Source: an uncultured Kiritimatiellota bacterium (GTDB lineage: Bacteria > Verrucomicrobiota > Kiritimatiellia > RFP12 > DVOR01). From it: a stretch of DNA of 64,000 bases. The number at the start of each line of letters is the position of its first letter. Position 1 is the first letter of the stretch. A program made the position numbers and the translations under genes. Below the pieces are notes generated by a model. The model made no database searches and was not told the DNA's origin. It saw only the letters and a list, made by a program, of their open reading frames with translations. Location: assembly GCA_944389585.1 (NCBI GenBank), contig CALXMW010000002.1, positions 124,001 through 188,000 of the forward strand, written 5' to 3'. Positions 15,901-45,427 of the stretch are shown one piece after another.

Positions 15901-16183
15901 TGTAGGCCTGCCCACCGGCCTTCGCGCCCGTCCACTTCAGCGTCGCGGCCTGGGCTTGGGTGACCTCGAAGGCGCCGATGTAGTAGTCCGTGGAGATGTC
16001 GGGGTCTTGGACGAAGAGGATTTGGGTGCCGTTGCGGTAGGTCGCGTCACGCGGGTCGGAGACGGTTGCGGGGGTGGCTTTCTGCGTTTTGAGGTCGTAG
16101 ACGAGATAGCGGGGCTCGGCCCTGGCGCTTGGGGCGAGGGCGAGGAGGGCGCTTGCCAGGCAGAGAATCGAAAGGCGTTTCAT
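12977..16183 (-). CDS. Secreted SUMF1-like and InlB-type repeat protein
   Basis: A 1068-aa surface or secreted protein. After a signal peptide (cleavage near SARA, residue 22) comes a degenerate SUMF1/formylglycine-generating-enzyme-like domain (about 50-235; IGAFEVTQAQA, DLYGNALEYTAEG). Next are about five divergent InlB B-repeat-like units (about 240-630) marked by GGTASVEGG, VTLTPRAP and YAFTARFEV. A second SUMF1-like region follows (about 700-895; YLGVYETTVGH, GFYGLWGNAFETNG), then one or two short beta domains ending PGYRLRLR. The catalytic cysteines of real formylglycine-generating enzymes are not evident, so binding or adhesion is likelier than catalysis. GGAGG lies 5 nt before the ATG. 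Confidence 0.75.
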   Translation of the reverse strand: MKRLSILCLASALLALAPSARAEPRYLVYDLKTQKATPATVSDPRDATYRNGTQILFVQDPDISTDYYIGAFEVTQAQAATLKWTGAKAGGQAYTATTKTEIATLPALPANLSFQTVAQWQAYAGEPTKPCNVSGGTPDTLSPFLYAVPVEEWYEGDYAGVTDPDHGAFDLYGNALEYTAEGLYIGGCAAKTGYTFSSLSKDGETIRDKVPTDSNGRGLLGVRLVYTPPEAQTFSVTVTMNGKQVGEPEGHKPGETVVVTPQVPGGHALTGREVTPEGLDGEAALDETFTFAMPAENVTVAYVSAPYATITVEGGTASVEGGQSGASVRAFAGDVVTLTAREPGDYETFAGWEGVAEGLEGGVFTVPEDIQGGEVYAFTARFEVIPRATVTVTGGTASVEGGESGAVVRAVAGAKVTLTPRAPGKYERFADWETPEGVALGEGNVFTVPGDIRDGQEYAFTARFEVIPHATIVVVGGDASAYEAVAGETVTLTPRAAPAYQAFTGWEGVAEGLEGNVFTVPELTGNVTYTFTAAYRYYPRVLVSGGSAVVTNGRQSFGNGYYEPGASLTLTPDKVEGRTFKGWAGATEGLTGNAYVVGDYGTSVTLTATYEDAEAETPDPVTIRLGSGASLFGNLPGDRTEVGEDDFGNVYEGFHYSPAGTIASLDLTDGSIRYSEPVESGDDSVGDPPNLADYDSYRAFWRDYLEWWQKAYGEAETPELDTSVLALRRVVRDDGTAFYLGVYETTVGHVARLNGEEKNLDSAAVYCGKNVSNLVSPLNKFKEILSMLNGKFKVNARLPEVEDVAEISPGYPTDSSLTDGMVVAGGTGQDPKDANAMTQDPYGFYGLWGNAFETNGDGKGFAGAVVFRRNQADAFLTDPAYSLNPGYAQYASLRPLIEVEEPVAIVVGAAGGPVVHVAAGEALFPDGSATPAPTQAGKKFTGWTLGGQSIGTDYVVKAEDEGKVLAATWKDVPSVRDVTVRCVNCQGPGNAVVGGTITVYPPEGYAFVEGKPVTLSGATGVVKEEKLQDGAVTLTLKAEALAAAATLTVTGHTAPLSAPSPGYRLRLR

Positions 16184-24462: not shown

Positions 24463-25341
24463 TCAGAGGAGGCCGAGGGAGAGGGCCATGGCGGCCATGC
24501 CGGCGACGAGGCCGCAGAGCGAGTCGTGCCCCTTGCCGTAGGCGCGGCTGGCGGGAAGCAGCTCGTCGAGCGAGACGAAGACCATGATGCCGGCGACGCC
24601 GGCGGAGACCAGCCCCATGAGCATCGGCGGGGGATGGGCGAGCGCGTCCCCCGCGAAGAGGGCGAGCAGGCCCCAGAGGGCGAGCGCGCCGACGGGCTCG
24701 GCCAGGCCGGAGAGGCAGCTCCAGAGGAAGGCGCGTCGGCGGTCGCCGGTGGCGTAGTAGATGGGGACGGAGACGGAGATGCCCTCGGGGATGTTGTGCA
24801 GGGCGATGGCGACGGCGATGGCCAGGCCGAGGGCGGGATCGTCGAGCGCGGCGAGGAAGGTGGCGAGGCCCTCGGGGAAGTTGTGGACGGTGATGGCCAG
24901 CGCGGTGAAGAGCCCCATGCGCAGGAGGCCGGCGCGGTTGCGGCGGGCGGTCTCCTCGAGGTGGTGGCGGGCCTCGGGGGGCGTGGGGGCGGCGGGGTCG
25001 CGCAGGGGGGCGTACTCGGCGGGGGCGTGCGTCTCGTGCGGGTTCTCGGGGCCGGGGACGAGGCGGTCGATGAGGAAGATGAGCGCGATACCCAGGAAGA
25101 AGCCGAGCGCGCCCAGCAGGAAGGCGGGGCGCTCGGCGAAGCCGGCGCCGCCCAGGCGCGCGACACCCTCGGGGAAGAGCTCGACGAAGGAGACGAAGAG
25201 CATCACGCCGGCCGAGAGCCCCGTGCAGACGGAGAGGAAGCGCGCGTTCGCCCGGGGCGCGAAGAAGGCGATGACGGCGCCCAGCGCCGTGGAGAGGCCG
25301 GCGGCGAGCGTGAGGGCGAAGGCCAGGAGGAGCCGTTCCAT
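24463..25341 (-). CDS. ZIP family metal transporter, second tandem copy (ZupT-like)
   Basis: A 292-aa inner-membrane importer of zinc or other divalent metals, with eight predicted helices. The metal-site motifs are HNFPEG in helix IV and HNIPEG in helix V. A charged, His-containing loop (NPHETHAPAEY, about 105-145) lies between helices III and IV. The gene begins one base after the stop of the upstream copy and the two proteins are nearly collinear, so this is a tandem duplication. The loop is the most diverged part. Metal specificity is not predictable. Confidence 0.92.
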   Translation of the reverse strand: MERLLLAFALTLAAGLSTALGAVIAFFAPRANARFLSVCTGLSAGVMLFVSFVELFPEGVARLGGAGFAERPAFLLGALGFFLGIALIFLIDRLVPGPENPHETHAPAEYAPLRDPAAPTPPEARHHLEETARRNRAGLLRMGLFTALAITVHNFPEGLATFLAALDDPALGLAIAVAIALHNIPEGISVSVPIYYATGDRRRAFLWSCLSGLAEPVGALALWGLLALFAGDALAHPPPMLMGLVSAGVAGIMVFVSLDELLPASRAYGKGHDSLCGLVAGMAAMALSLGLL

Positions 25342-25342
25342 G

Positions 25343-26221
25343 TCAGAGCAGGAGGAGGGAGAGGGCCATGACGGCCATGCCGGCGACGAGGCCGTAGAGC
25401 GAGTCGTGCCCCTTGCCGTAGGCGCGGCTGGCGGGGAGCAGCTCGTCGAGCGAGATGAAGACCATGATGCCGGCGACGGCGCCGGAGACCAACCCCATGA
25501 GCAGCGGCGGCGGGTCGAAGAAGACCGCGCCGTGGCAGGCGGCCAGGAAGGCCCAGAGGGCAAGCGCGCCGACGGGCTCGGCGAAGCCGGCCAGGCAGCT
25601 CCAGACGAAGGCGCGGCGGCGGTTGCCGGTGGCGTAGTAGATGGGGACGGAGACGGAGATGCCCTCGGGGATGTTGTGCAGGGCGATGGCGATGGCGATG
25701 ACCACGCCCAGGTGCGGGTCGACCAGCGCGGCGAGGAAGGTGGAGAGCCCCTCGGGGAAGTTGTGGACGGTGATGGCCAGCGCGGTGAAGGCGCCCATGC
25801 GCAGCAGGTGGCGGCGCGTCTGGCGCGTCCGCCGGCGATAGGCGCGGCGCTCGGCGGGGGTGGCAGCGGGGCCGGGCTGGCGAAGCTCGTCGTAGTCGCG
25901 CCGGGCGTGCGTCTCGTGCGGGTTCTCGGCGTCGGGGACGAGGCGGTCGATAAGGAAGATGAGCGCGATACCAAGGAAGAAGCCGAGCGTGCCCAGCGCC
26001 GCGGCCGGGCGCTCGGCGAAGCCGGCCAGCCCGATCTGCGCGAAGGCCTCGGGCAGGATCTCCATGAACGAGACGTAGAGCATCACGCCGGCCGAGAGCC
26101 CCGTGCAGACGGAAAGGAAGCGCGTGTTCGTCTTGGGCGCGAAAAAGGCGATCGCCGCCCCCACCCCCGTGGAAAGGCCGGCCATCAACGTCAGCGCGAA
26201 TGCGATCAGAAAGCGTTCCAT
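25343..26221 (-). CDS. ZIP family metal transporter, first tandem copy (ZupT-like)
   Basis: A 292-aa ZIP transporter with the same layout as its downstream neighbour: HNFPEG and HNIPEG metal motifs, VSLDELLPASRAYGKGHDS-like C-terminal part and a diverged central loop, here Arg-rich (ATPAERRAYRRRTRQ). Both copies have the same length, and the first 130 nt of their 3' ends are almost identical, which suggests recent duplication or gene conversion. Upstream, a GC-TACCCT box 8 nt before the ATG may be its promoter. No metal-regulator binding site was recognised. Confidence 0.92.
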   Translation of the reverse strand: MERFLIAFALTLMAGLSTGVGAAIAFFAPKTNTRFLSVCTGLSAGVMLYVSFMEILPEAFAQIGLAGFAERPAAALGTLGFFLGIALIFLIDRLVPDAENPHETHARRDYDELRQPGPAATPAERRAYRRRTRQTRRHLLRMGAFTALAITVHNFPEGLSTFLAALVDPHLGVVIAIAIALHNIPEGISVSVPIYYATGNRRRAFVWSCLAGFAEPVGALALWAFLAACHGAVFFDPPPLLMGLVSGAVAGIMVFISLDELLPASRAYGKGHDSLYGLVAGMAVMALSLLLL

Positions 26222-26314: not shown

Positions 26315-28591
26315 ATGAAGGCGCGATTTTCCGTCACCGGGATGAGCTGCGCGATGTGCGCGGCCCGTGTCCAAAAGGCCGTCGCCGCGCTCCCGGGCGT
26401 CCGGGACTGCGCGGTGAACCTGCTCAAGGGCGACCTGTGCGTGGAGCTCGACGGCACGGGGGCCGACCCCGCGGCCGTCGTGAAGGCCGTGGAGCAGGCC
26501 GGCTATGGCGCGACCCCGATCGAGGCGCCCGGCCCCAAGGCCCCGCCCCGCCCCGCCGCCCCTACCCCTGCCGAGAAGGCGGCGCGGGAGGCCGCGGCCC
26601 TGCGCCGGCGCTTCGCGCGCTCGGCCCTCTTCGCCGCGCCGCTCCTCTATCTTTCGATGGGCCGGGCGATGGGCTGGCCCCTGCCGCCGTGCCTGCTGGG
26701 CGCGTCGAACGCGGGGGTCTTCGCGCTGACGCTCCTGCTGCTGGCCGCGCCCGTGGCCTGCCTCAACGCCCGCCTCTTCCGCGGGGGCCTCAAGGCGCTC
26801 CTGCGCGGCGGGCCGAACATGGATTCGCTGGTGGCCCTCGGGGCGGGCGCCTCGCTGGCCTATGGCCTCTGGACGCTCTACCGCGTCGTCGCGGCCCTCG
26901 GCGCGGGCCAGGCGGCCGCGGCGGAGGCCCTCGCGGGCGACCTCTACTTCGACGGCGCGGCGATGATCCTCACCCTCGTCACCCTGGGCAAATGGCTCGA
27001 GGCGCGCGCCAAGGGCCGCACCACCGAGGCCCTCGGCGCCCTGCTCGCCCTCGCGCCCAAGACCGCCCGGCTCCTGCGCGGCGGCCGCGAGGAGACCGTC
27101 CCGGCGGAGGCCGTCGCGGTCGGGGACGCCGTGCTCGTCAAGGCCGGCGAGGCCATCCCCGTCGACGGCACGGTGGAGGCGGGCCGCGGCGCGGTGGACG
27201 AGAGCGCCCTCACCGGCGAATCCATCCCCGTGGACAAGGCGCCCGGCGACCGCGCCGCCTGCGCCACCGTCCTGCGCGACGGCTACCTGACGATCCGCGC
27301 CGAGCGGGTGGGCGGCGAGACGGCGCTGGCGCAGATCGTCCGCCTGGTGGACGAGGCGACCTCCTCAAAGGCGCCCCTCGCCAAACTGGCCGACCGCGTG
27401 GCGGGCGTCTTCGTGCCGGCGGTCATCGCCGTGGCGCTGGCGACCTTCGCGGCGTGGCTGGCGTGCGGGGCGGGCGTCGGCTTCGCGCTGACGATGGCCG
27501 TCTCGGTGCTGGTCGTCTCGTGCCCCTGCGCGCTGGGGCTGGCCACGCCCACGGCCGTCATGGTGGGCATGGGGCGCGGCGCGGCGCGCGGCATCCTCTT
27601 CAAGTCCGCCGAGGCCCTCGAGGCCGCGCACGCCGTGGGCGTGGTGGCGCTGGACAAGACCGGCACGCTCACCGAGGGCCGGCCCGCCGTCACCGACGCC
27701 CTCCCCGCCCCGGGCGTGGAGGCCGCGCGGCTCTGGCGCGTGGCCGCGGCGCTCGAGCGCCTCTCCGGCCACCCGCTGGCCCAGGCCGTGGCCGAGGAGG
27801 CCGCCCGGCGCGGCGTCGAGGCCCCGGCCGCGGAGGCCTTCGCCCAGATCCCGGGGCGCGGGCTGGGCGGGCGGGTCGGGGGCGCGCCGTGCCTGGCGGG
27901 GAACCGCGCCCTGCTGGAGGAGCGCGGCGTGCCGACCGGGGCCCTGGCGGCGCGGGCCGAGGCGTTGGCGGGCGAGGGCAAGACGGCGCTCTGGTTCGCC
28001 GAGGCGGGCCGCGCGCTGGGCCTCATCGCCGTGGCCGACACGCTCAAGCCCACCGCCCGCGAGGCCGTCGAGGCGCTCCGGCGCCTGGGGGTGGAGACGG
28101 TGATGCTGACGGGCGACGCGCCGCGCACCGCCGAGGCCATCGGCCGCCAGGCCGGCGTGGGGCGCGTGGTCGCCGGCGTGCTCCCGCAGGGCAAGGCCGC
28201 CGAGGTGCGCGCCCTCCAGGCCGGGGGCCGGCGCGTGGCGATGGTGGGCGACGGCGTGAACGACGCGCCCGCCCTGGCCTGCGCGGACGTGGGCGTGGCC
28301 ATCGGGGCGGGGACGGAGGTGGCCATCGGGGCGGCGGGCGTGGTGCTGATGCGCAACGACCCGTTGGACGTGGCGCGGGCGGTGCGCCTGAGCCGCGCGA
28401 CGGTGCGCAACATCAAGGAGAATCTCTTCTGGGCGTTCTTTTACAACGCCGCGGCCATCCCGTTGGCGGCGGGGTGCTTTTACGCGGCGTGGGGGCTGCG
28501 CCTGAGCCCGATGGTGGCGGCGCTGGCGATGAGCCTGAGCTCGGTCTTCGTGGTCTCCAACGCCCTGCGCCTGCGCTTCGCGCGCCTGTGA
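26315..28591 (+). CDS. copA: Copper-exporting P1B-type ATPase
   Basis: A 758-aa Cu+ efflux pump. An N-terminal heavy-metal domain carries GMSCAMC (Cys12, Cys15). The transmembrane metal site is CPC (Cys403, Cys405), and later helices contain FFYNAAAIPLA and MSLSSVFVVSNALRL, the YN and M-x-x-S-S determinants of the Cu+ subgroup. The actuator has TGES, the P-domain DKTGT (Asp447), the N-domain SGHPLA and the hinge GDGVNDAPAL. GGAGCAAGAAGG precedes the ATG. It stands alone on the plus strand and converges on glyS with only 19 nt between the stop codons. Confidence 0.95.
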   Translation: MKARFSVTGMSCAMCAARVQKAVAALPGVRDCAVNLLKGDLCVELDGTGADPAAVVKAVEQAGYGATPIEAPGPKAPPRPAAPTPAEKAAREAAALRRRFARSALFAAPLLYLSMGRAMGWPLPPCLLGASNAGVFALTLLLLAAPVACLNARLFRGGLKALLRGGPNMDSLVALGAGASLAYGLWTLYRVVAALGAGQAAAAEALAGDLYFDGAAMILTLVTLGKWLEARAKGRTTEALGALLALAPKTARLLRGGREETVPAEAVAVGDAVLVKAGEAIPVDGTVEAGRGAVDESALTGESIPVDKAPGDRAACATVLRDGYLTIRAERVGGETALAQIVRLVDEATSSKAPLAKLADRVAGVFVPAVIAVALATFAAWLACGAGVGFALTMAVSVLVVSCPCALGLATPTAVMVGMGRGAARGILFKSAEALEAAHAVGVVALDKTGTLTEGRPAVTDALPAPGVEAARLWRVAAALERLSGHPLAQAVAEEAARRGVEAPAAEAFAQIPGRGLGGRVGGAPCLAGNRALLEERGVPTGALAARAEALAGEGKTALWFAEAGRALGLIAVADTLKPTAREAVEALRRLGVETVMLTGDAPRTAEAIGRQAGVGRVVAGVLPQGKAAEVRALQAGGRRVAMVGDGVNDAPALACADVGVAIGAGTEVAIGAAGVVLMRNDPLDVARAVRLSRATVRNIKENLFWAFFYNAAAIPLAAGCFYAAWGLRLSPMVAALAMSLSSVFVVSNALRLRFARL

Positions 28592-30500: not shown

Positions 30501-31400
30501 ATGAGGTTCAAGATTTCGGTGCCGGCGACGAGCGCCAACGTGGGGCCGGGCTTCGACGTGATGGGGCTGGCCTTCGACATGTACAACCGGTTCGTCTTCG
30601 ACACGGACTGCCCCGAGCGCCTGCGCATCGAGGGTTGCCTGCCGGAGTTCGCCGAGCCGGAGCGCAACCTGCTCTACACCACCCTGCGCGAGGTGCTCGC
30701 CCAGCACGGGCGCCTGGCGCCGAACCTGCGCATCGCCTTCGACACCGACCTGCCCGTCTGTTCGGGCCTCGGCTCCAGCTCCACCTGCGTGGTGGCCGGC
30801 GTGATGGCCGCCAACACCCTGGGCAACCTGGCGATGGACACCGAGCAGATCCTGCGCACCGCCACCCAGATCGAGGGCCACCCCGACAACGTGGCCCCCG
30901 CCACCCTCGGCGGCTTCGTCGCGGCGGTCGTCGAGGACGGCCTGGTCTACTGGCACCGCTACCCCATCAGCGACCGCATCAGCTTCTACGCCATGATGCC
31001 CGACGTGCGCGTCCCCACCGAGGCCGCCCGCGCCGCCCTCCCCAAGACCTACTCGCTCACCGACTGCATCTACAACCTCTCGCGCGTGCCCATCCTCCTC
31101 GAGGGCTTGGAGCGCGCCGACCCGCGCCTCATCCGCGCCGGCATGAAAGACCGCATCCACCAGGAATACCGCCTCCAGCTCATCCCCCAGGGCGCCGACG
31201 TCCTGCGCTTCGCCGCGGAGGAGACCGAGGCCGTCGCCGCCTACATCTCCGGCGCGGGCCCCACCATCGTGGCCGTGGCCATCGACGACGACGACGCGCT
31301 GGGCAAGCGCCTGCGCCACTACGTCTCCGGCCTCGACGTCGAATGGAGCGTCCGCAAGATGCACGTCCACCGCCAAGGCGCCCAGCTCCGCCTCCTCTGA
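30501..31400 (+). CDS. thrB: Homoserine kinase
   Basis: A 299-aa GHMP kinase that phosphorylates L-homoserine with ATP in threonine synthesis. The N-terminus VPATSANVGPGFDVMGLA and the GHMP phosphate loop PVCSGLGSSST are clear, as is the C-terminal motif SGAGPTIVAV. Strong Shine-Dalgarno site. The next gene begins 5 nt after its stop with no promoter or ribosome site of its own, so thrB probably heads the operon that contains the glycosyltransferase and acyl-carrier cassette. No other threonine gene is nearby. Confidence 0.95.
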   Translation: MRFKISVPATSANVGPGFDVMGLAFDMYNRFVFDTDCPERLRIEGCLPEFAEPERNLLYTTLREVLAQHGRLAPNLRIAFDTDLPVCSGLGSSSTCVVAGVMAANTLGNLAMDTEQILRTATQIEGHPDNVAPATLGGFVAAVVEDGLVYWHRYPISDRISFYAMMPDVRVPTEAARAALPKTYSLTDCIYNLSRVPILLEGLERADPRLIRAGMKDRIHQEYRLQLIPQGADVLRFAAEETEAVAAYISGAGPTIVAVAIDDDDALGKRLRHYVSGLDVEWSVRKMHVHRQGAQLRLL

Positions 31401-31405
31401 AGCCC

Positions 31406-32554
31406 ATGCCCCGCGTCCTCTACATCCACACCCAGGCCCTCCGCGCCGCCTCCCCACACGCCCGGCGCACCTTCGAGATGCTCGGGCTCCTGCGCCGCGC
31501 CGGGCTGGACGTGGACGTGCTCACGCTCCCCGGCGGCGACCCCTGGCCCAAGGGCCTCGCCGGGCGCGTCTGCCGGACGCTCCCCGTCCCCTTCGCCCGC
31601 ACGCTCCCGCCCTACGGCACCGGCCCCCGCCGCCGCTGGGCCACCGCCGCCATGGCCCTCGCCGCCGCCGGGATCCTCCTCCGCGAGCGCTACGACGCCG
31701 TCCACTGCGCCGACCGCTCCGTGCGCCTGGGCGCCTGGCTGGCCTGGCTCTTCGGCGTGCGCCTCGTCTTCGAATGGCGCTCGGCCTCGGGGCACGACCT
31801 CACGGCCTGGGCGCGCGGCCTGGGTCGCCGCCTCCTGCGCCAGGTGGGCCTCGTCATCACCGACCGCCCCTGCCGCGCCGCCGGCCTGCGCGAGACGGGC
31901 CTCCTCGGCCGCCTGGCCGTCATCCCCCCCCTGCCCGCCCCCGCCGTCGCGCCCCTCCCGCCCCCGCCCGCCAGGCCCCGCGGCGCCACCCAGCGCTTCC
32001 GCCTGGCCGCCCTCTCGCCGGCGGGCGACCTCTCCGACCTGGGCCTCCTCGAGGAGGCCCTCCCCCGCCTCCTCGACCGCCCCAACCTGCGCGTCTCGGT
32101 CATCGGCGGCACGCCCGCCGACGCCGAGCGCTTCCGCCGGGCCTGCGCCGCGCGCCTCCCCGCCGAGGCCCAGCCCGACGTCCGCCCCGCGCCCGAGGGG
32201 GCCGCGGACTTCCTGGCCGCCGTCGCGGGGGCCGACCTCGTCTTCCTCCCCGCCGCCGCCGGCGCCCTGCCGCCCCCCGAGCTCCTCGACGCGATGGCCG
32301 CCCAGCGCGCCCTCCTCGCCGTCCGCTCCCCCGCCTACGAAGGCCTCCTGGGGCCGGGCAACGCCATGCTCATCCGGGCCGACGCGCGGGATCTGGTCGC
32401 GGCCGTCCTGCGGCACCTGCGCGCCCCGCTCCTCTGCGCCGAGCACGCCTGCGCCGCCGCCGAGACGCTCGCGCGGGACCGCTCCGCCGCCGCCTGCGCC
32501 GACGCCCTGCGCGCCTGCTACGCCCTGGCCCTGGAAGGGGGGGCCGCGCCATGA
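31406..32554 (+). CDS. GT4-type glycosyltransferase
   Basis: A 382-aa GT-B fold glycosyltransferase. The N-terminal half resembles GT4 acceptor domains (YIHTQALRAASPHARRTFEM, the HCADRSVRLG region, and WRSASGHDLT); the C-terminal half has RFRLAALSPAGDLSDLGLLEEAL and a late nucleotide-sugar region (ELLDAMAAQRALLAVRSPAYEG) where a Glu normally binds the donor. It overlaps the FkbH-like gene start (ATGA). It may glycosylate a lipid, polysaccharide or the product of the following cassette. Donor and acceptor unknown. Confidence 0.75.
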   Translation: MPRVLYIHTQALRAASPHARRTFEMLGLLRRAGLDVDVLTLPGGDPWPKGLAGRVCRTLPVPFARTLPPYGTGPRRRWATAAMALAAAGILLRERYDAVHCADRSVRLGAWLAWLFGVRLVFEWRSASGHDLTAWARGLGRRLLRQVGLVITDRPCRAAGLRETGLLGRLAVIPPLPAPAVAPLPPPPARPRGATQRFRLAALSPAGDLSDLGLLEEALPRLLDRPNLRVSVIGGTPADAERFRRACAARLPAEAQPDVRPAPEGAADFLAAVAGADLVFLPAAAGALPPPELLDAMAAQRALLAVRSPAYEGLLGPGNAMLIRADARDLVAAVLRHLRAPLLCAEHACAAAETLARDRSAAACADALRACYALALEGGAAP

Positions 32555-33987
32555 AGGTCGCCCTCTTCGCCGACAGCGCCCCGCAGTTCGTCGAGCGCGC
32601 CCTCGCCCGCCTGACGGGCGCCGAGGTGCGCGCCTGGCCCTTCGCCTGGCCCGAGGCCGTCCGCGCCGAGCTCGAGGCCTTCGCGCCGGATTGGGTGCTC
32701 GTGTGGGCCTGCGCCGAGGCCGCGCGCTTCCCCGACGTGGCCCCCCTCCTGCGCCTGCCCTTCCGCTTCCTCGTCCCCAACATGGCCGCGCGCGACGACG
32801 GCACGATGGGCAGCCTGGCCCTCCGCGAGCCCACGAGCCTGCGGGCCAAGATCCTGGCGTGGAACGCGCGCCTCGTGGAATTGGCCCGCGCCCACGCGAA
32901 CCTGACGCTGGTGGATCTCGACGGCGTGCAGGCGCGCCTGGGGCGGGGGCGCACCTTCGACCCGCGCCTGTGGGAGGCCGCCGCGATGGCCCTGACCCCA
33001 GAGGGCGCGGAGGCCTTCGCCAAGCGCGCGGCCGACGCCCTGCGCGCCGCCCAGGGGCGCGTGCGCAAGGCGCTCGTGACGGATTTGGACGGGACGCTCT
33101 GGGACGGCATCGTCAGCGAGGTCGGCCCCGAGGGCATCGACCCCGATGGCCCCGGCCGCCGCGCCTACCGCGACTGGCTCCGCGCCCTGGCCGCGCGCGG
33201 CGTCCTCCTGGCCGTGGCCTCGCACAACGACCCGGACGTCGCCCGCGCCGCCTTCGGGCGGCCCGGCCTGGGGATGGCGCCGGGGGACTTCCTGGCCTTC
33301 GAGGCCGACTGGGGGCCCAAGCCCGACATGCTCCGGCGCATCGCCAGGCGCCTCCACGTGGGCACGGACGCGCTCGTCTTCGTGGACGACCGCCCCGAGC
33401 AGCGCGCCCAGGTGCGCGAGGCGCTCCCCGAGGTGGCCGTGCCCGAGATGCCCGAGGACCCCGCCCGCTGGGTGGAGTTCCTGGCCGCGCAGAACCTCTT
33501 CGAGTGCGCCCAGCTGACCGGGGACGACCGCCTCCGCGCCCAGAGCCTGCGCGACGACGCGGCACGCGCCGAGGCCGCCGCCGCCCTCTCGCCCGAGGCG
33601 TACCTCGCCTCGCTCGGCCAGGTGCTCACGCCCGAGCCGTTGGGGCCGGGGAACCTGGCGCGCGCGGCCCAGCTGACGCAACGCTGCAACCAGTTCAACA
33701 TGCGCGGCACGCGCCATACCGAGGCCGACCTCGCCGGGCGCGAGGGGTGGGTCTACCGCCTGCGCGACCGCTTCGGCGACCTCGGCGCCGTCTCCGCCGT
33801 GGTGCTGGAGGGCGACTTCGTCGAGACGTGGGTCATCAGCTGCCGCGCCCTCAACCGCGGCGTGGAGCGGCTCATCCTCGGGCATCTGCGCGCGCAACGG
33901 CCCGGGCTCCGCGGCGAGTACGTGCCCACCGCGCGCAACGGCCGCTGCGCGGGCGTCTACAAGGAAAACGGGGTGCCCACGCCATGA
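32551..33987 (+). CDS. FkbH-like HAD-IIIC protein (probable glyceryl-ACP synthase)
   Basis: A 478-aa protein. An N-terminal SGNH-like region (1-165) is followed by a HAD-IIIC phosphatase domain with DLDGTLWDG (nucleophile Asp178, acid Asp180), a VASHNDP segment and VFVDDRPEQR, and by a GNAT-like C-terminal domain that contains AQLTQRCNQFNMRGTRH. This three-part build is the FkbH family, whose studied members take 1,3-bisphosphoglycerate, remove phosphate and load a glyceryl unit onto an acyl carrier protein. It overlaps both neighbours by ATGA, with an ACP gene directly after it, as that activity predicts. Confidence 0.85.
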   Translation: MKVALFADSAPQFVERALARLTGAEVRAWPFAWPEAVRAELEAFAPDWVLVWACAEAARFPDVAPLLRLPFRFLVPNMAARDDGTMGSLALREPTSLRAKILAWNARLVELARAHANLTLVDLDGVQARLGRGRTFDPRLWEAAAMALTPEGAEAFAKRAADALRAAQGRVRKALVTDLDGTLWDGIVSEVGPEGIDPDGPGRRAYRDWLRALAARGVLLAVASHNDPDVARAAFGRPGLGMAPGDFLAFEADWGPKPDMLRRIARRLHVGTDALVFVDDRPEQRAQVREALPEVAVPEMPEDPARWVEFLAAQNLFECAQLTGDDRLRAQSLRDDAARAEAAAALSPEAYLASLGQVLTPEPLGPGNLARAAQLTQRCNQFNMRGTRHTEADLAGREGWVYRLRDRFGDLGAVSAVVLEGDFVETWVISCRALNRGVERLILGHLRAQRPGLRGEYVPTARNGRCAGVYKENGVPTP

Positions 33988-34208
33988 TCGAGAAGGTGCG
34001 CGAGCTGTTGGCCGGGGTCTTGGGGCGCGAGGTGCCGCCGCTCACGCCGGGGACGCCCTTCGAGGCGCTGCCGGGGTGGGATTCCGTCGTCCACCTCTCC
34101 ATCCTGATGGAGGCCGAGCGGCGCTTCGGGCTTTCCCTCACCGCGGCGCAGATGATCGGCATGAAGACAGTCGGCGACCTGCTCGCCGCGTTGGAGGCCA
34201 AGCCATGA
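33984..34208 (+). CDS. Acyl carrier protein (first of two)
   Basis: A 74-aa four-helix carrier protein. Ser34 in GWDSVVHLSIL is the phosphopantetheine site. ATGA overlap with both the FkbH-like gene and the KAS III gene. In tetronate and methoxymalonate pathways the discrete ACP next to FkbH carries the glyceryl unit, so this is the likeliest acceptor. Distinct from housekeeping AcpP: shorter and with a less acidic helix II. Confidence 0.85.
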   Translation: MIEKVRELLAGVLGREVPPLTPGTPFEALPGWDSVVHLSILMEAERRFGLSLTAAQMIGMKTVGDLLAALEAKP

Positions 34209-35158
34209 ACCAGACCTTCCGCGGGCTCCGCCTGGAGGCCGTCGCCTGCGCGGTGCCGGCGGGGCGGCTGACGCTCGGGGACTACGCCGCGCGCTTCGGC
34301 CAGGACATCGCCGCGCGCTATGAGAAGGTCGTCGGCGTCAGGCAGGTTTTCCGCGCGGCGACCGGGACGGCGGCGGCCGACCTGGCGCGCGCGGCCGCCG
34401 GGGCGCTCTTGGGCGGGGATCGGGCGGGGGTGGACGCGCTCCTGTGCGTGACGCAGACGCCGCGCCTCGACGCGCCGCCGGATTCCTGCCTGCTGCAGCG
34501 GGAGCTGGGGCTGGGCGAGCACGTGCTCGCGCTGGACCTCAACCAGGGGTGCGCCGGCTTCATGGTCGCGCTCCAGGCCGCCGCGCATTTGCTGCTCCAC
34601 CCCGCCGTGCGGCGCGTCCTTGTCTGCGGCGGCGACGTCCTCTCCGACCGCGTGGACGAGAACGACCACGCCACGGCCTTCATGTTCAGCGACGTGGGGT
34701 TCGCGGCGCTTGTCGGGCGCGGCGAGGGCGAGTGGGCCTTCGCGAACGGCACCGCGGGCTCCAAGGCCATCACCCTGCCCCGGGGCGGGAGCTTCAAGAT
34801 GGACGGCACGGAGGTCTTCAACTTCACAATCTCCAAGGTGCCCGAACAAATCCTCTCCCTGCGCACGCCCGAGGTCGACTGCCTCCTCCTCCACCAATCC
34901 AACGCCTTCATCCTACGGCAAATCGGCCGCCTCTGCGGCTTCGCGCCCGAGCAGGTGCCGATGAACATCGCGGACTGCGGCAACGCCTCCTCCGCCAGCA
35001 TCCCGCTGCTCCTCTGCGACCTCGCCAGAAACCGCGGTTGGCGCGGCAGGCGCACGGCCATCCTCTCGGGCTACGGGTGCGGCCTCACCTGGGTCTCCGC
35101 CCGGATGCCCCTAGACTTCGACTCCACGCAATTCCACCTTGCCCCCTATCAGCCATGA
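34205..35158 (+). CDS. KAS III-family ketosynthase (FabH-like)
   Basis: A 317-aa thiolase-fold condensing enzyme with the full Cys-His-Asn triad: Cys116 in LNQGCAGFMVAL, His230 in LLLHQSNAFI and Asn260 in GNASSASIPL. The C-terminal SGYGCGLTWVSA closes the fold. It sits between two ACP genes and after the FkbH-like gene, unlike a housekeeping fabH, which normally lies with plsX/fabD. In tetronate biosynthesis a KAS III-like enzyme joins glyceryl-ACP with a beta-ketoacyl chain; in polysaccharide loci related enzymes make short acyl groups. Product unknown. Confidence 0.88.
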   Translation: MNQTFRGLRLEAVACAVPAGRLTLGDYAARFGQDIAARYEKVVGVRQVFRAATGTAAADLARAAAGALLGGDRAGVDALLCVTQTPRLDAPPDSCLLQRELGLGEHVLALDLNQGCAGFMVALQAAAHLLLHPAVRRVLVCGGDVLSDRVDENDHATAFMFSDVGFAALVGRGEGEWAFANGTAGSKAITLPRGGSFKMDGTEVFNFTISKVPEQILSLRTPEVDCLLLHQSNAFILRQIGRLCGFAPEQVPMNIADCGNASSASIPLLLCDLARNRGWRGRRTAILSGYGCGLTWVSARMPLDFDSTQFHLAPYQP

Positions 35159-35373
35159 ACGACGCCGACATCCTTGCCGAGCTGGCCGACATCCTCGCCG
35201 CGCCCGCGCCCCTCACCCCCGAGACCCCGCTCGAGCCCCCGCTCACGTGGGATTCCATGGCCCTTTTGGCCTATCTGGCGTTCGTGCGCCTCACCTTCGG
35301 GAAGGTGCTCCCGGGCGTCTCCTGCAAGGATTTCAGGACGGTGGGCGACCTGTTGGCCGCGGCGCGGGGCTAG
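35155..35373 (+). CDS. Acyl carrier protein (second of two)
   Basis: A 72-aa carrier protein with the phosphopantetheine Ser34 in TWDSMALLAYL. It differs from the first ACP in having Met after the Ser and a hydrophobic, less acidic helix II, so the two probably carry different acyl groups. It overlaps the KAS III stop by ATGA and ends the operon; the opposing ung gene ends 2 nt later, so no separate terminator exists. Confidence 0.8.
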   Translation: MNDADILAELADILAAPAPLTPETPLEPPLTWDSMALLAYLAFVRLTFGKVLPGVSCKDFRTVGDLLAAARG

Positions 35374-40924: not shown

Positions 40925-42604
40925 TCAGGTGTAGCGGAGGACTTCGTCGACGGTGGTGTAGCCGTCGAGGACGTTTCGGATGGCGTCCTCGCGCATGGTG
41001 CGCATGCCGAGCTCGCGGGCTTTCTCGCGGATGACGAGGGTGGGCTCGCGGGCGTTGATCATGTCGCGGACGGGGTTGGACATGCGGAGGTACTCGAAGA
41101 CGCCTTTGCGGCCTTTGTAGCCGGTGGCGTTGCAGATTTTGCAGCCTTTGCCGAAGGCGAACTTGCGCGCGCCGATGTCGGCGCGGGTGAGGCCGAGGCG
41201 GTGGATGGCGTCGTCGTCGGGGTCGTAGAAGGTCTTGCAGTTGGCGCAGCAGGTGCGCACGAGGCGTTGGGCGAGGACGGCCTGGAGGGTGGAGGAGATG
41301 AGGTAGGGGGCAACGTTCATGTCCACCAGGCGCGTGACGGCGCCGGCGGCGTCGTTGGTGTGGAGGGTGGAGAAGACGAAGTGGCCGGTGAGGGCGGCCT
41401 GGACGGCGATCTCGGCGGTCTCGAGGTCGCGGATTTCGCCGACCATGATGACGTCGGGGTCTTGGCGGAGGAAGGCGCGGAGGACTTTGGCGAAGGTGTT
41501 GCCCTGCTGGGGGTTGATGGGGACTTGGACGAGGCCTTCGATGTCGTATTCGACGGGTTCCTCGGCGGTGAGGATCTTGGTGTCGACCTTGTTGATGTAG
41601 CGGAGGCAGGAGTAGAGGGTGGTGGTCTTGCCCGAGCCGGTGGGGCCGGTGACGATGAAGATGCCGTTGGGCTTCTCGATGTCGAGGGTGATGCCTTCGT
41701 AGATGTCCTCGGGCAGGCCGATGTTCTCGAGGTCGAGGGAGACGGCGGAGCGGTCGAGGACGCGGAGCACGACCGATTCGCCGTGGACGGTGGGCAGGCA
41801 GGAGACGCGGAGGTCCACCTGGCGCCCGGCGACGGTGAGGGCGATGCGGCCGTCTTGGGGGACGCGGCGCTCGGCGATGTTGAGGTTGGCCAGCACCTTG
41901 ATGCGCGAGATGATGGGCAGGGCCATGCTCAGCGGCGGGGGGTTCATCTCGTAGAGGGCGCCGTCGACGCGGTAGCGGATCTTGAAGTCCTTCTCGAAGG
42001 GCTCGATGTGGATGTCGGAGGCGCGGTCGGTGATGGCCTGGTAGAGGACGAGGTTGACGAAGCGGATGACGGGGGCGGAGGCGGCGGCGCTCTCGATGCC
42101 CTTCTCGTCGGCGCCCGCGGCGTCGAACTCGGGGAGTTCCTCGATGAGCGCGTCGGAGGCGTCGCCGGCGGAGAAGTGCTCGTCGATGGCGGCCTTGATC
42201 TGGGCCTCGGGGGCGAAGACGAAGCGGATCTCGCGCGAGAGGAGGAAGGTGAGCTCGTCGATGACGTCGGCCTCGACGAGGTCGGAGGCGGCGAAGGTGA
42301 CGTGGTCGCTCTCGGCCTCGACGGGGACGATGGAGTGGAGGCGGACGCTGGCGACGGGGACGAGGGTCTTGAGGGTGTCGTCGAAGGCGACGGCGGAGAG
42401 GTCGATGACGTCGGAGCCTTGGCTGCCGGCCATGAGGGTGAGGAGGTCTTCCTCGGAGAGGACGTCGAGGTCGAGGATGAGGGTTTTGTAGGGCTTGCCG
42501 CTTTCGACGTGCTGGCGGACGAGGTCTTGGGCCTGGGCGTCGTCGATGAAGCCGTTGTCTCGGACGAGCTCGACGAGGGGCGGGAGCTGGAGGGTGTCTG
42601 CCAT
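40925..42604 (-). CDS. GspE/PilB-type secretion or pilus assembly ATPase (second copy)
   Basis: A 559-aa hexameric ATPase. An N-terminal MshEN/GspE-N domain (about 1-150) precedes the ATPase core with Walker A GPTGSGKTTT, the Asp box ILTAEEPVEY, Walker B DVIMVGEIRDLETAEIA and the His box FSTLHTNDA. A zinc finger is formed by CANC and CKIC. It is 3 nt downstream of pilT. It could power pseudopilus assembly of a type II secretion system while its paralogue powers pili. No pilin or other gsp/pil genes are in the window. Confidence 0.9.
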   Translation of the reverse strand: MADTLQLPPLVELVRDNGFIDDAQAQDLVRQHVESGKPYKTLILDLDVLSEEDLLTLMAGSQGSDVIDLSAVAFDDTLKTLVPVASVRLHSIVPVEAESDHVTFAASDLVEADVIDELTFLLSREIRFVFAPEAQIKAAIDEHFSAGDASDALIEELPEFDAAGADEKGIESAAASAPVIRFVNLVLYQAITDRASDIHIEPFEKDFKIRYRVDGALYEMNPPPLSMALPIISRIKVLANLNIAERRVPQDGRIALTVAGRQVDLRVSCLPTVHGESVVLRVLDRSAVSLDLENIGLPEDIYEGITLDIEKPNGIFIVTGPTGSGKTTTLYSCLRYINKVDTKILTAEEPVEYDIEGLVQVPINPQQGNTFAKVLRAFLRQDPDVIMVGEIRDLETAEIAVQAALTGHFVFSTLHTNDAAGAVTRLVDMNVAPYLISSTLQAVLAQRLVRTCCANCKTFYDPDDDAIHRLGLTRADIGARKFAFGKGCKICNATGYKGRKGVFEYLRMSNPVRDMINAREPTLVIREKARELGMRTMREDAIRNVLDGYTTVDEVLRYT

Positions 42605-42607
42605 CGC

Positions 42608-43726
42608 TTATTCCCCTTGCATTTCGCGGAGTTTCTGGACGGTGGTCTCGGGGTCCTGGGCCTTGGTGACGAGGTCTTCGTAGGAGATCTTGCCCTCTGC
42701 GTAGAGGCGCAGGAGCGAGTCGTCGAGCGAGATCATGCCGAACTTGGCGCCGGTCTGGATGTCGGAGGTGATCTGGAAGGTCTTGTTGTCGCGGATGCGG
42801 CTGCGGATGGAGGGGGTGCTCATCATGATCTCGAAGGCGGCGCAGCGGCCCTTGCCGCCCTTGTCGGCGCGCGGCAGGAGCACCTGGGAGATGACGGCGA
42901 CCAGCGACATGGAGAGCTGCGTGCGCACCTGCTCCTGCTGGTTGGTGGGGAAGGAGTCGATGATGCGGTCGACGGTGGAGGCCGCGCCGGTGGTGTGCAG
43001 CGTGCCGAAGACGAGGTGGCCGGTCTCGGCGGCGGTGATGGCCGCGCCGATGGTCTCGAGGTCGCGCATCTCGCCCACGAGGATGACGTCGGGGTCCTGG
43101 CGCAGGGCGCGGCGGATGGCCTCGGCGAAGGAAGGGACGTCGGCGCCGACCTCGCGCTGGGTGACGATGGATTTCTTGGAGTAGTGGTAGAACTCGATGG
43201 GGTCCTCGATGGTGATGATGTGGCAGTCGCGGTCCTCGTTGATGATGTTGAGCATGGAGGCGAGGGTGGTGGACTTGCCGCTGCCGGTGGGGCCGGTCAC
43301 CAGGATGAGGCCGCGGGGCTTGTAGAGCAGCTCGTGGACGGCCTCGGGCAGGCCCAGCTGCTCGAGGGTGAGGATGGTGGAGGGGATCTGGCGCAGGACG
43401 AGGCCGTAGTTGTGGCGCTCCTTGAAGACCGAGACGCGGAAGCGCGCGGCCTCGGAGAAGTAGAGCCCGAAGTCCGCGCCGCCGTTCTTCTCCACCTCGG
43501 CGATCTGCTCCTCGTTGGAGATCTCGAGGGCCAGCTTGGCGACGTCGGCCTGCGTGAGGGGCGGGACGTCCAGCGGCTCGAGGGAGCCGGAGCAGCGCAG
43601 GTAGGGCGGGCCGCCCACGCGGATGTGCAGGTCGGAGGCGCCTTCGTCGACGGTCGCCTGCATGAGGTCTTGCATCGTGATCTCGGTGGCGGCCTCCTGG
43701 GCCAGCTCGTACACGCTCTTGTCCAT
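42608..43726 (-). CDS. pilT: Twitching motility/retraction ATPase PilT
   Basis: A 372-aa hexameric ATPase that depolymerises type IV pili. Walker A is [11 protein letters not shown], the Asp box is [10 protein letters not shown], Walker B is [14 protein letters not shown] and the His box is FGTLHTTGA. The PilT-specific retraction motif appears as AIRRALR. No zinc finger, as expected. Between two assembly-type ATPases, 12 nt from the upstream one, in an operon. Confidence 0.93.
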
Positions 43727-43738
43727 TGCCGAACTCCT

Positions 43739-45427
43739 TTAGTTTTCGTCGCCCATGGTGGCGCGGAGGACTTCCTCGAGGGTGGTCATGCCGCTGGCCA
43801 CCTTGAGCATCCCGTCCTCGCGGAGGGTGCGCATGCCCATCTCGCGGACGCGGGCACGGAGGGTGGTGGTGGGGACCTTGTCGAAGATCATGCGCTGCAC
43901 CGTGTCGTCCACGGTGAAGATCTCGAAGATGCCCTTGCGGCCCTTGTAGCCGGTGTTGTTGCAGACGGGGCAGCCCGCGCCCCGGAACATGCGCATGTTG
44001 GCGACGTCCTTGGCCATCGCGCCGAGCATCTTGCGCTCGTGGTCGGTGGGGGTGTGCTCCTGGCGGCACTTCTCGCAGATGGCGCGCACCAGGCGCTGGG
44101 CCATCGCCGCGCGCAGGGCCGAGGCCACGAGGAAGGGCTTGATGCCGATGTCCGTGAGGCGCGTGACGGCGCTGGGCGCGTCGTTGGTGTGCAGGGTGGA
44201 GAAGACGAGGTGGCCGGTGAGCGCCGCCTCCATGGCGATCTCGGCGGTCTCGTGGTCGCGGATTTCGCCGATCATGACGATGTTCGGGGCCTGGCGCAGG
44301 ATGGAGCGCAGCGCCGCCGAGAAGTCCAGCCCCACGGCGCGGTTCACCTGCACCTGGTTGATGCCGCTCATCTGGTATTCCACCGGGTCCTCGACGGTGA
44401 TGAGCTTCTTGTCGGGGCGGTTGATCTGCCCCAGGCAGGCGTAGAGCGTCGTCGTCTTGCCCGAGCCGGTGGGGCCCGTCACCAGGATGACGCCGTCGGG
44501 CAGGCCGATGAGGCGCTCGAACTTCGCCTGGTCGTCGGAGAGGAAGCCCAGCTGCGGCAGGCCCAGGGCCAGGTTCTGCTTGTCGAGGATACGCATGACG
44601 ATGGACTCGCCGAAGTTCGTCGGCACCGTGCTCACGCGCAGGTCCAGCTCGCGCTCGCCCATCTTCACCTGGATGCGCCCGTCCTGCGGGATGCGCCGCT
44701 CCGAGAGGTCCATGTTCGCCATCAGCTTGACGCGCGAGAGGATGGCCCCCTGCAGGCGCTTGGGCGGCGGGTCCATCTCGCGCAGCGCCCCGTCGATGCG
44801 GAAGCGCACGCGGAAGCGCTTCTCCATCGGCTCCAGGTGGATGTCCGAGGCCTTCATCTTGCAGGCGTCCATCAGGATGAGGCTCACCAGGCGGATGACC
44901 GGCGCGTCGCCCTCGCCGCCCTCGTCCACCTCCATCTCCTTGCGCTGGCTCACCAGGCCCTCGCCGGTGTCCGTCGCGTCCGGGTCGAAGGTCAGCGGGT
45001 AATACTTGTCCATCAGGCGCTTCACGTCGCCCGAGGTCACCACCACGAAATCCGCGTTCTTCCCGTTCAGGCGGTAGCGCACCGCGTCCTGCGCGTCGTA
45101 GTTCGCCGGGTCGCAGATCGCCACCGTCACCGAATCCTCGTCCGCCTGCAGGGGCACGGCGTTGTACTTGCGCGCCGTCTCCGCGTCCAGCAGCGCCACC
45201 GCCGCCGCGTCCACGTCGTCGCCCTCGATCGAGGCGAAGGGCATCCCGAACTGCTCGGCCAGCGTCCCGAGCACGTCCTCCTCCGAGACGTCCCCCCGCG
45301 CCACCAGCCAATCCAGCGGCGTCTGCCCCTCCGCGCGCTTGGCCTCCACGGCCTCGGCCACCTGGGCCGCGCCCAGGCGCCCCGTCTCCTGAAGGATCTG
45401 CAACGCATACTCGTCGTTCGTCGTCAC
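43739..45427 (-). CDS. pilB: PilB/GspE-type pilus assembly ATPase (first copy)
   Basis: A 562-aa ATPase for type IV pilus or type II pseudopilus extension. An N-terminal MshEN domain (about 10-140, with LGTLAEQFGMPF and TVAICDP) is followed by the core: Walker A GPTGSGKTTTLYACL, Walker B NIVMIGEIRDHETAEIA, His box FSTLHTNDA and a CEKC...CPVC zinc finger. The start is a GTG with GGGAG 8 nt upstream; no in-frame ATG exists near. It overlaps the stop of a tiny upstream frame (GTGA). Confidence 0.9.
   Translation of the reverse strand: MTTNDEYALQILQETGRLGAAQVAEAVEAKRAEGQTPLDWLVARGDVSEEDVLGTLAEQFGMPFASIEGDDVDAAAVALLDAETARKYNAVPLQADEDSVTVAICDPANYDAQDAVRYRLNGKNADFVVVTSGDVKRLMDKYYPLTFDPDATDTGEGLVSQRKEMEVDEGGEGDAPVIRLVSLILMDACKMKASDIHLEPMEKRFRVRFRIDGALREMDPPPKRLQGAILSRVKLMANMDLSERRIPQDGRIQVKMGERELDLRVSTVPTNFGESIVMRILDKQNLALGLPQLGFLSDDQAKFERLIGLPDGVILVTGPTGSGKTTTLYACLGQINRPDKKLITVEDPVEYQMSGINQVQVNRAVGLDFSAALRSILRQAPNIVMIGEIRDHETAEIAMEAALTGHLVFSTLHTNDAPSAVTRLTDIGIKPFLVASALRAAMAQRLVRAICEKCRQEHTPTDHERKMLGAMAKDVANMRMFRGAGCPVCNNTGYKGRKGIFEIFTVDDTVQRMIFDKVPTTTLRARVREMGMRTLREDGMLKVASGMTTLEEVLRATMGDEN

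Follow-up and report, generated by a model that had tools for sequence, protein, structure and literature searches.

An FkbH–KAS III operon with two kinds of acyl carrier protein in a Kiritimatiellota genus: a possible source of a glyceryl-derived acyl group

The operon and its conservation in the genus

We analysed a 64,000-nucleotide stretch of DNA (hereafter named the window) from the genome of an uncultured Kiritimatiellota bacterium (1.95 Mb, 94% complete), in which six consecutive plus-strand genes encode the homoserine kinase ThrB, a GT4-type glycosyltransferase (GT), an FkbH-like enzyme, an acyl carrier protein (ACP1), a β-ketoacyl-ACP synthase III (KAS III) and a second acyl carrier protein (ACP2), in this order (Table 1). 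The gap between the thrB and GT genes is 5 bases, followed by four ATGA overlaps down to ACP2. An initial annotation had described the last five genes, their overlaps and their content of FkbH, ACP, KAS III, ACP and GT, and this description was borne out by the open reading frames (ORFs), by Pfam and NCBIfam matches and by similarity; the residues it had named, Asp178 and Asp180 of FkbH, Cys116, His230 and Asn260 of KAS III and Ser34 of both ACPs, were correct in the sequences and alignments. A set of FkbH, ACP and KAS III, also with two ACPs, is already known. The new element is that this set is joined to thrB and a GT, that its KAS III is of the glycan-locus type and that its ACPs belong to two lineages; the operon was not found described in the literature as judged on titles and abstract openings. 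No lead was found on a functional role of thrB in the pathway, and the gene is perhaps merely co-transcribed with the cassette.

The genus was sampled by 17 genomes. A KAS III match (45–100% identity) was present in 16 of them, the remaining genome (G006) being only 66% complete, and FkbH matches were likewise found in 16/17, that of G016 being an unlinked relative of 49% identity. FkbH, ACP1 and KAS III were contiguous in 14/17 genomes, with ACP2 behind them in 13/17 (the contig of G004 stops within the KAS III gene), and thrB lay immediately upstream of the GT gene in 12/12 genomes whose contigs cover that stretch. The initial annotation had staked its reading on the cassette being kept in related genomes, as was found. 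G014 has ACP1, ACP2 and KAS III on one contig and FkbH on another, behind a rubrerythrin gene, and no GT match was found in this genome at E 1e-15. In G016, the operon has no FkbH between GT and ACP1, and the GT gene (L116:9265-10413) carries one in-frame TAG.

The gene order is kept while the flanks differ between lineages; near pairs, for example G000/G013, have common flanks, and the downstream flank of G013 is that of the window. Seven loci scanned with Pfam had unrelated flanks, containing an amidase and a helicase (L111), a lectin-domain protein (L118), fumarase (L119), NAD kinase (L120), UTP-glucose-1-phosphate uridylyltransferase (L121), release factor 2 (L122), and porphobilinogen synthase with a recombinase (L124). 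Pairwise ratios of non-synonymous to synonymous substitution (dN/dS) for the five genes were 0.30–0.41 between G000 and G013 and 0.06–0.14 between G008 and G010, those of thrB being 0.13 and 0.01 respectively. Because dN/dS was 0.06–0.41 and the order is conserved between varying flanks, the cassette is more than a product of chance. KAS III evolves faster than FabH of the same genome, with 0.48–0.84 versus 0.80–0.96 identity to the window's copies (11 genomes). Among the class genomes searched, KAS III proteins of >40% identity were found in this genus alone; FkbH is frequent in the class (111/345 genomes at E 1e-15). In the protein database, a KAS III relative and an FkbH relative are both named Candidatus Spyradenecus sp., and NCBI places Spyradenecus under Lentisphaerota.

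Table 1. Genes of the operon in the window, and related loci of Azospirillum
Feature	Position	Strand	Evidence
thrB (homoserine kinase), the unit's first gene	30501..31400	+	TIGR00191, 236 bits on stretch 30504-31400 (cut-off 168)
GT4-type glycosyltransferase	31406..32554	+	Pfam PF13579, 1.2e-12
FkbH-like HAD-IIIC enzyme, predicted glyceryl transferase/phosphatase	32551..33987	+	Pfam FkbH_N/HAD; TIGR01686, 210.7 bits (cut-off 146.65)
ACP1, predicted to carry glyceryl and to partner FkbH; Ser34 in GWDSV	33984..34208	+	PF00550, 1.9e-10
KAS III, Cys116-His230-Asn260	34205..35158	+	Pfam KAS III domains
ACP2, predicted to carry the second unit; Ser34 in WDSMALLAY	35155..35373	+	Similarity to ACP1
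Azospirillum pseudaminate/flagellin loci	L160:4711-9110; L161:4398-8804		

Residues and phylogeny of KAS III and FkbH

The cassette KAS IIIs were compared with Escherichia coli FabH, whose numbering is used here, on 15 of the 16 sequences, that of G004 being cut by the contig end; a partial relative (rel_L092) was excluded from the KAS alignments and trees. Arg249 of FabH is an ACP docking residue. In the excerpted text of PMC4606726, Cys-His-Asn is given as the FabH triad, and FabH models with superposed coenzyme A (CoA) place the adenine between Trp32 and Arg151 and have the pantetheine arm held by Arg36. All four residues were missing from the cassette: Trp32 was present in 0/15 (Arg in 15/15), Arg36 in 0/15, Arg151 in 0/15 and Arg249 in 0/15 (Phe in 15/15). 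The catalytic residues were kept, Cys112 and Asn274 in 15/15 and His244 in 14/15. In the window's KAS III, Arg38, Val42, His155 and Phe235 stand at the positions of Trp32, Arg36, Arg151 and Arg249, a pairing repeated by profile–profile alignment. The FabHs of the genus kept Trp32, Arg151 and Arg249 in 13/13, with His at the Arg36 position, and the same four residues were missing from 16/16 KAS IIIs that adjoin FkbH in family f5 of the same order. The AlphaFold2 model of KAS III (pLDDT 94.8) was nearest to PDB entry 4efi (TM 0.93), a KAS III of Burkholderia xenovorans that is the closest solved structure by both sequence and fold.

A KAS tree of 73 rows resolved the cassette, FabH, f5-linked, pseudaminate-locus and tetronate-type enzymes as five separate groups with 98–100 bootstrap each. 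The cassette KAS III had as its sister the second KAS of loci with the order KAS-ACP-KAS-SDR (SDR, short-chain dehydrogenase/reductase) in three f5 genomes (100/98), and its identity was 34–37% to the KAS IIIs of glycan loci versus 19–26% to the tetronate-type ones. Neither the residues nor the tree showed the clustering with housekeeping FabH that would have spoken against the initial annotation, and a duplicate of FabH was ruled out by the absence of Trp32, Arg151 and Arg249 from all 15 cassette rows together with the tree. The genome's own FabH is a separate gene (C3:9456-10289) beside a ketosynthase gene; an AcpP-like gene has apparent FabD and FabG genes as cluster neighbours, and the lipid A enzyme LpxC is present. 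Also considered was whether the genus and f5 had each assembled the FkbH–KAS III pair independently. Trees separate both sets; since a joint KAS clade was not rejected (approximately unbiased test, p-AU 0.111), independent assembly is not claimed.

The initial annotation had suggested a tetronate-like unit, a suggestion that fared poorly. Five tetronate-type references from Methylosinus, Streptomyces and Pseudalkalibacillus were picked by the gene context KAS III-FkbH-ACP. Their KAS IIIs formed a separate clade with Pro at the position of the catalytic His in 5/5, and a clade joining them with the cassette KAS III was rejected, modestly, at p-AU 0.028, whereas the corresponding FkbH clade was not rejected (p-AU 0.233). 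A PKS (polyketide synthase) or ketosynthase gene was present in 5/5 of these loci and an E2-type acyltransferase in 2/5. The operon of the window has no PKS (the genome was not searched for one) and no Agg4/Agg5-like acyltransferase and dehydratase partners; a feature it has in common with tetronate operons is FkbH plus a stand-alone ACP. A tetronate operon was rejected on the KAS III clade and the His-to-Pro signature. The second ACP, which had been taken as a mark of difference from tetronate clusters, does not serve as one, because three Streptomyces loci and the Pseudalkalibacillus locus also carry two ACP genes. Methoxymalonyl supply was rejected as well: two dehydrogenases and an O-methyltransferase, which stand beside FkbH and ACP in the methoxymalonyl-ACP operon as outlined in part of PMC7489565, are missing from the operon.

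FkbH retained Asp178, Asp180, Lys257, Asp279, Asp280, Arg371 and Ser430-Cys431-Arg432 in 67/67 aligned FkbHs, and Asn463 in 66/67. The best PDB match of its AlphaFold2 model (pLDDT 92.3) was 3slr, protein BF1531 of Bacteroides fragilis. In trees, the cassette FkbH stood apart from the KAS-linked FkbHs of f5 and grouped with those of FkbH-ACP-MBOAT loci (MBOAT, membrane-bound O-acyltransferase) at 97/96, or 80/87 once the tetronate-type FkbHs were added; in this second tree eight rows from other phyla, mostly near-copies, were dropped, one tetronate-type row was mis-trimmed (tetr_L165, 12% of columns filled) and two were untrimmed (tetr_L166 and tetr_L168). FkbH is predicted to load glyceryl, a substrate that we infer from the FkbH family. 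In Streptomyces loci (L005-L009), an FkbH ~37–41% identical with that of the window has ACP-like stretches close by, and the stretch gave no KAS III match.

The GT was 45–93% identical within the genus and ≤33% among matches from the rest of the class at E 1e-15, and is a genus-specific lineage of the GT4 type. Its EX7E-like motif was degenerate (LLDAMA) in the alignment. There was no lead on the acceptor, the database search having returned 34 GT relatives, none of them named.

Two carrier proteins and the possible route

Ser was present at the Ser34 position in 15/15 aligned genus rows of ACP1 and ACP2 alike (G003 is absent from the ACP1 alignment and G004 from that of ACP2), and the window's ACP2 had no Pfam or NCBIfam match at E 0.001. 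ACP1 and ACP2 profiles made from the genus sequences were run against other loci, covering ORFs that scored >12 bits plus twelve named ACPs. In FkbH loci of the polysaccharide type (MBOAT and similar) without KAS III, the ACP1 profile won in 6/8 (L136, L142, L143, L145, L016 and Tistrella L164); all twelve ORFs of L005-L010 favoured it as well, mostly with low scores, as did the FkbH-adjacent ACPs of the tetronate-type loci (5/5). Beside the closest KAS relatives, the ACP2 profile won in 6/8, each relative tested having one ACP that favoured it. Across KAS III loci without FkbH, 6/13 ACPs favoured ACP2 (L155, L156, L157, L127 and the 77-residue ACP of two Azospirillum loci) and 7/13 favoured ACP1, including ACPs near FabH in L108 and L109. 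The ORFs of the f5 FkbH–KAS III loci favoured ACP1 in 15/15, so this genus is the only one in which the mix of two ACP lineages was seen. In G016, which has lost the linked FkbH, ACP1 has diverged (41/75 residues identical to G009, versus 58/75 between G009 and G011), while ACP2 (53/71 versus 55/71) and KAS III (238/312 versus 244/312) stayed level in the same comparison. This single case points to ACP1 as the putative partner of FkbH.

Other ACP-like arrangements were seen away from the cassette. Neighbouring pairs of PP-binding matches lie on G006:C178, G012:C16 and G014:C142, and single ORFs with two ACP-like stretches (L104:8533-8979 and L106:4423-4851) adjoin a KAS III without Trp32 and Arg249, with no FkbH match in the stretch.

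Taken together, we tentatively favour the reading that this is a composite operon, in which glyceryl held on ACP1 is condensed by a carrier-fed KAS III with a malonyl-type unit on ACP2 to give an acyl decoration of a surface glycan or glycolipid. FkbH would load the glyceryl unit, taken from 1,3-bisphosphoglycerate as is usual in its family, onto ACP1; tetronate and methoxymalonate pathways provide examples of glyceryl use by FkbH in the excerpt of PMC7489565. KAS III, without the CoA-gripping residues of FabH, would take the glyceryl from ACP1 and not from CoA, and would most likely condense it with the malonyl-type unit on ACP2, condensation being the likeliest reaction since Cys-His-Asn is the FabH triad. 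The product would be a short dihydroxy-oxo acyl group such as 4,5-dihydroxy-3-oxopentanoyl-ACP2; it may decorate a glycan or glycolipid assembled with the neighbouring GT, a target suggested by the GT and by glycan-locus relatives on both sides. Thus the glyceryl substrate, the carrier assignment, condensation in preference to transfer, the product and the acceptor are all what we infer. The glyceryl-derived acyl product named by the initial annotation stays plausible, and the cassette is conserved, with the active-site residues of FkbH and KAS III intact.

Several observations weigh against this composite reading. The ACP donors are predicted from the missing CoA-site residues, not proven, and the loss of these residues is not peculiar to FkbH-linked enzymes: of 13 class KAS IIIs without a linked FkbH, seven are without Trp32 and Arg249, the other six grouping with FabH and keeping Trp32, Arg36, Arg151 and Arg249. 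G016 keeps ACP1, KAS III and ACP2 without a linked FkbH, so the KAS–ACP2 half may be independent of glyceryl or may rely on the unlinked FkbH of this genome. The KAS III of G007 (L124:11208-12179), on a long branch, has Gly for the catalytic His, with Cys and Asn kept. The ACP profiles also cross over, as the ACPs of two FkbH loci (L144 and L147) favour ACP2, and those of L097, L104 and L106 and the second ACP of both Azospirillum loci, which have KAS III and no FkbH, favour ACP1. Finally, the operon encodes no acyltransferase and the genome has no MBOAT, other acyltransferase families not having been searched. A bolder form of the composite reading, in which KAS III has dispensed entirely with CoA and joins glyceryl-ACP1 with malonyl-ACP2 into a new dihydroxy-oxopentanoyl decoration, a core surface trait of a gut genus that arose from fused halves of two glycan-acylation systems, appears unlikely.

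The main rival is that KAS III acts as an acyl shuttle, moving glyceryl from ACP1 to ACP2 without condensation, so that glyceryl itself would decorate the glycan. Two ACPs and a KAS III without CoA-site residues would suit such a role, the G007 enzyme has lost precisely the His while keeping Cys and Asn, and ChlB3 is described in part of PMC9573744 as moving 6-methylsalicyl from ChlB1 to the ACP ChlB2. However, ChlB3 and CerJ use Cys-His-Asp according to the same text, and the cassette keeps Cys-His-Asn, with its His in 14/15; we regard the shuttle as somewhat unlikely. It is quite improbable that the two halves are independent, with KAS III and ACP2 making a fatty or hydroxy acyl group for the glycan, FkbH and ACP1 supplying a separate glyceryl, and only the operon in common. 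Each half does resemble different loci, and G016 has kept ACP1-KAS-ACP2 with FkbH gone from the operon, but FkbH-ACP1-KAS-ACP2 is contiguous in 13/17 genus genomes and FkbH adjoins KAS III in f5 too. Highly improbable is tetronate-type offloading, in which KAS III would join glyceryl-ACP1 with a β-ketoacyl group from fatty acid synthesis on ACP2 and the GT would glycosylate the released small tetronate, since the separate KAS clade, the Pro for His, the lower KAS identity and the absence of an E2-type acyltransferase, dehydratase or PKS from the operon argue against it, despite the unrejected FkbH clade, the ACP1-like ACPs of tetronate-type loci and the place of FkbH, ACP and a FabH-like enzyme in a five-gene tetronate set (PMC7489565, in part).

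If the composite reading is true, four proteins would be enough to turn a glycolytic intermediate into an acyl group, with no PKS among the operon's genes, and this compact route would be easy to rebuild in vitro because its parts are few and small. It would offer a test case for a KAS III that uses two ACPs without CoA, and would indicate a glyceryl-derived surface chemistry in a genus seen here solely in metagenome-type records. In addition, the His-or-Pro residue together with the KAS III clade could separate tetronate-like FkbH–KAS III sets from others and so aid the annotation of FkbH clusters.

Around the operon, the minus-strand genes downstream are those of what we take to be uracil-DNA glycosylase, HisF, HisH and PNPase, and a 136-residue minus-strand protein there had no Pfam match. 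Elsewhere in the window, tandem ZIP-family metal transporter genes (24463-25341 and 25343-26221, minus strand) adjoin the gene of a P-type ATPase with an HMA domain (26354-28591, plus strand); three adjacent minus-strand genes (40925-45427) are type II/IV secretion ATPase-like, the two that were scanned being T2SSE by Pfam; and a gene at 12977-16183 (minus strand) encodes a protein of 1068 residues that carries an InlB-like repeat domain (Flg_new_2) and is perhaps a surface protein.

Comparison with known systems

The nearest relatives on the KAS side are the three KAS-ACP-KAS-SDR sets of f5 (L155, L156 and L157, the first KAS of L157 being cut by the contig end). In addition to the sister relationship of their second KAS to the cassette KAS III, their ACP fits the ACP2 profile best. 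However, they contain two KAS IIIs and an SDR, and no FkbH match was found in the fetched stretches. O-antigen-ligase-like, GT61 and polysaccharide deacetylase genes lie near the set in L155, and DegT aminotransferase and methyltransferase genes in L156.

The best plasmid-borne relatives of the KAS III, 34–36% identical, belong to Azospirillum. Two annotated loci (Table 1) contain a glycosyltransferase, pseI, two small ACP-like genes (one of them called hypothetical in the L160 annotation), a ligase and an SDR, then the KAS III and then flagellin. Like the cassette enzyme, this KAS III has Cys-His-Asn and no Trp32, and one of the ACP-like genes fits the ACP2 profile. The Azospirillum enzyme is perhaps another carrier-fed KAS III. 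Unlike the cassette, the Azospirillum loci contain pseI, a CoA ligase, an SDR and an alpha/beta hydrolase, have no FkbH in the stretch, and their KAS III keeps Arg151. A NeuB/PseI profile search of the window's own genome gave one match of 23.2 bits (cut-off 22.1), covering 78/241 profile positions only, and pseudaminate decoration is neither shown nor excluded. The flagellin locus of Campylobacter jejuni presumably carries an FkbH/KAS III/two-ACP set, genes of which the consulted portion of PMC3068675 makes no mention.

On the FkbH side, the nearest lineage is that of the FkbH-ACP-MBOAT sets (L136, L142, L143, L144 and Tistrella L164; L147, whose third gene was not scanned, was counted with them by its likeness to L144), in which the ACP is mostly ACP1-like. 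These sets differ in having an MBOAT gene (by Pfam; annotated in L164) and no adjoining KAS III, and their FkbHs have 575–678 residues versus 478 in the cassette. The operon contains no MBOAT gene and the genome gave no PF03062 match, by which transfer of the acyl group by an MBOAT was ruled out.

Tetronate (glycerate-utilisation) operons, for example that of Mad7/Mad8/Mad16 in the portion of PMC7489565 consulted, place FkbH next to an ACP and a KAS III-type enzyme, as the cassette does; the tetronate-type loci differ by their other KAS III clade, the Pro for His and the PKS or ketosynthase alongside. The acyltransferases ChlB3 and CerJ have the KAS III fold in common with the cassette enzyme, and ChlB3 also transfers from carrier to carrier (PMC9573744, in part). 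They are set apart by their published description, not by sequence comparison, through a Cys-His-Asp triad in place of the Cys-His-Asn of the cassette.

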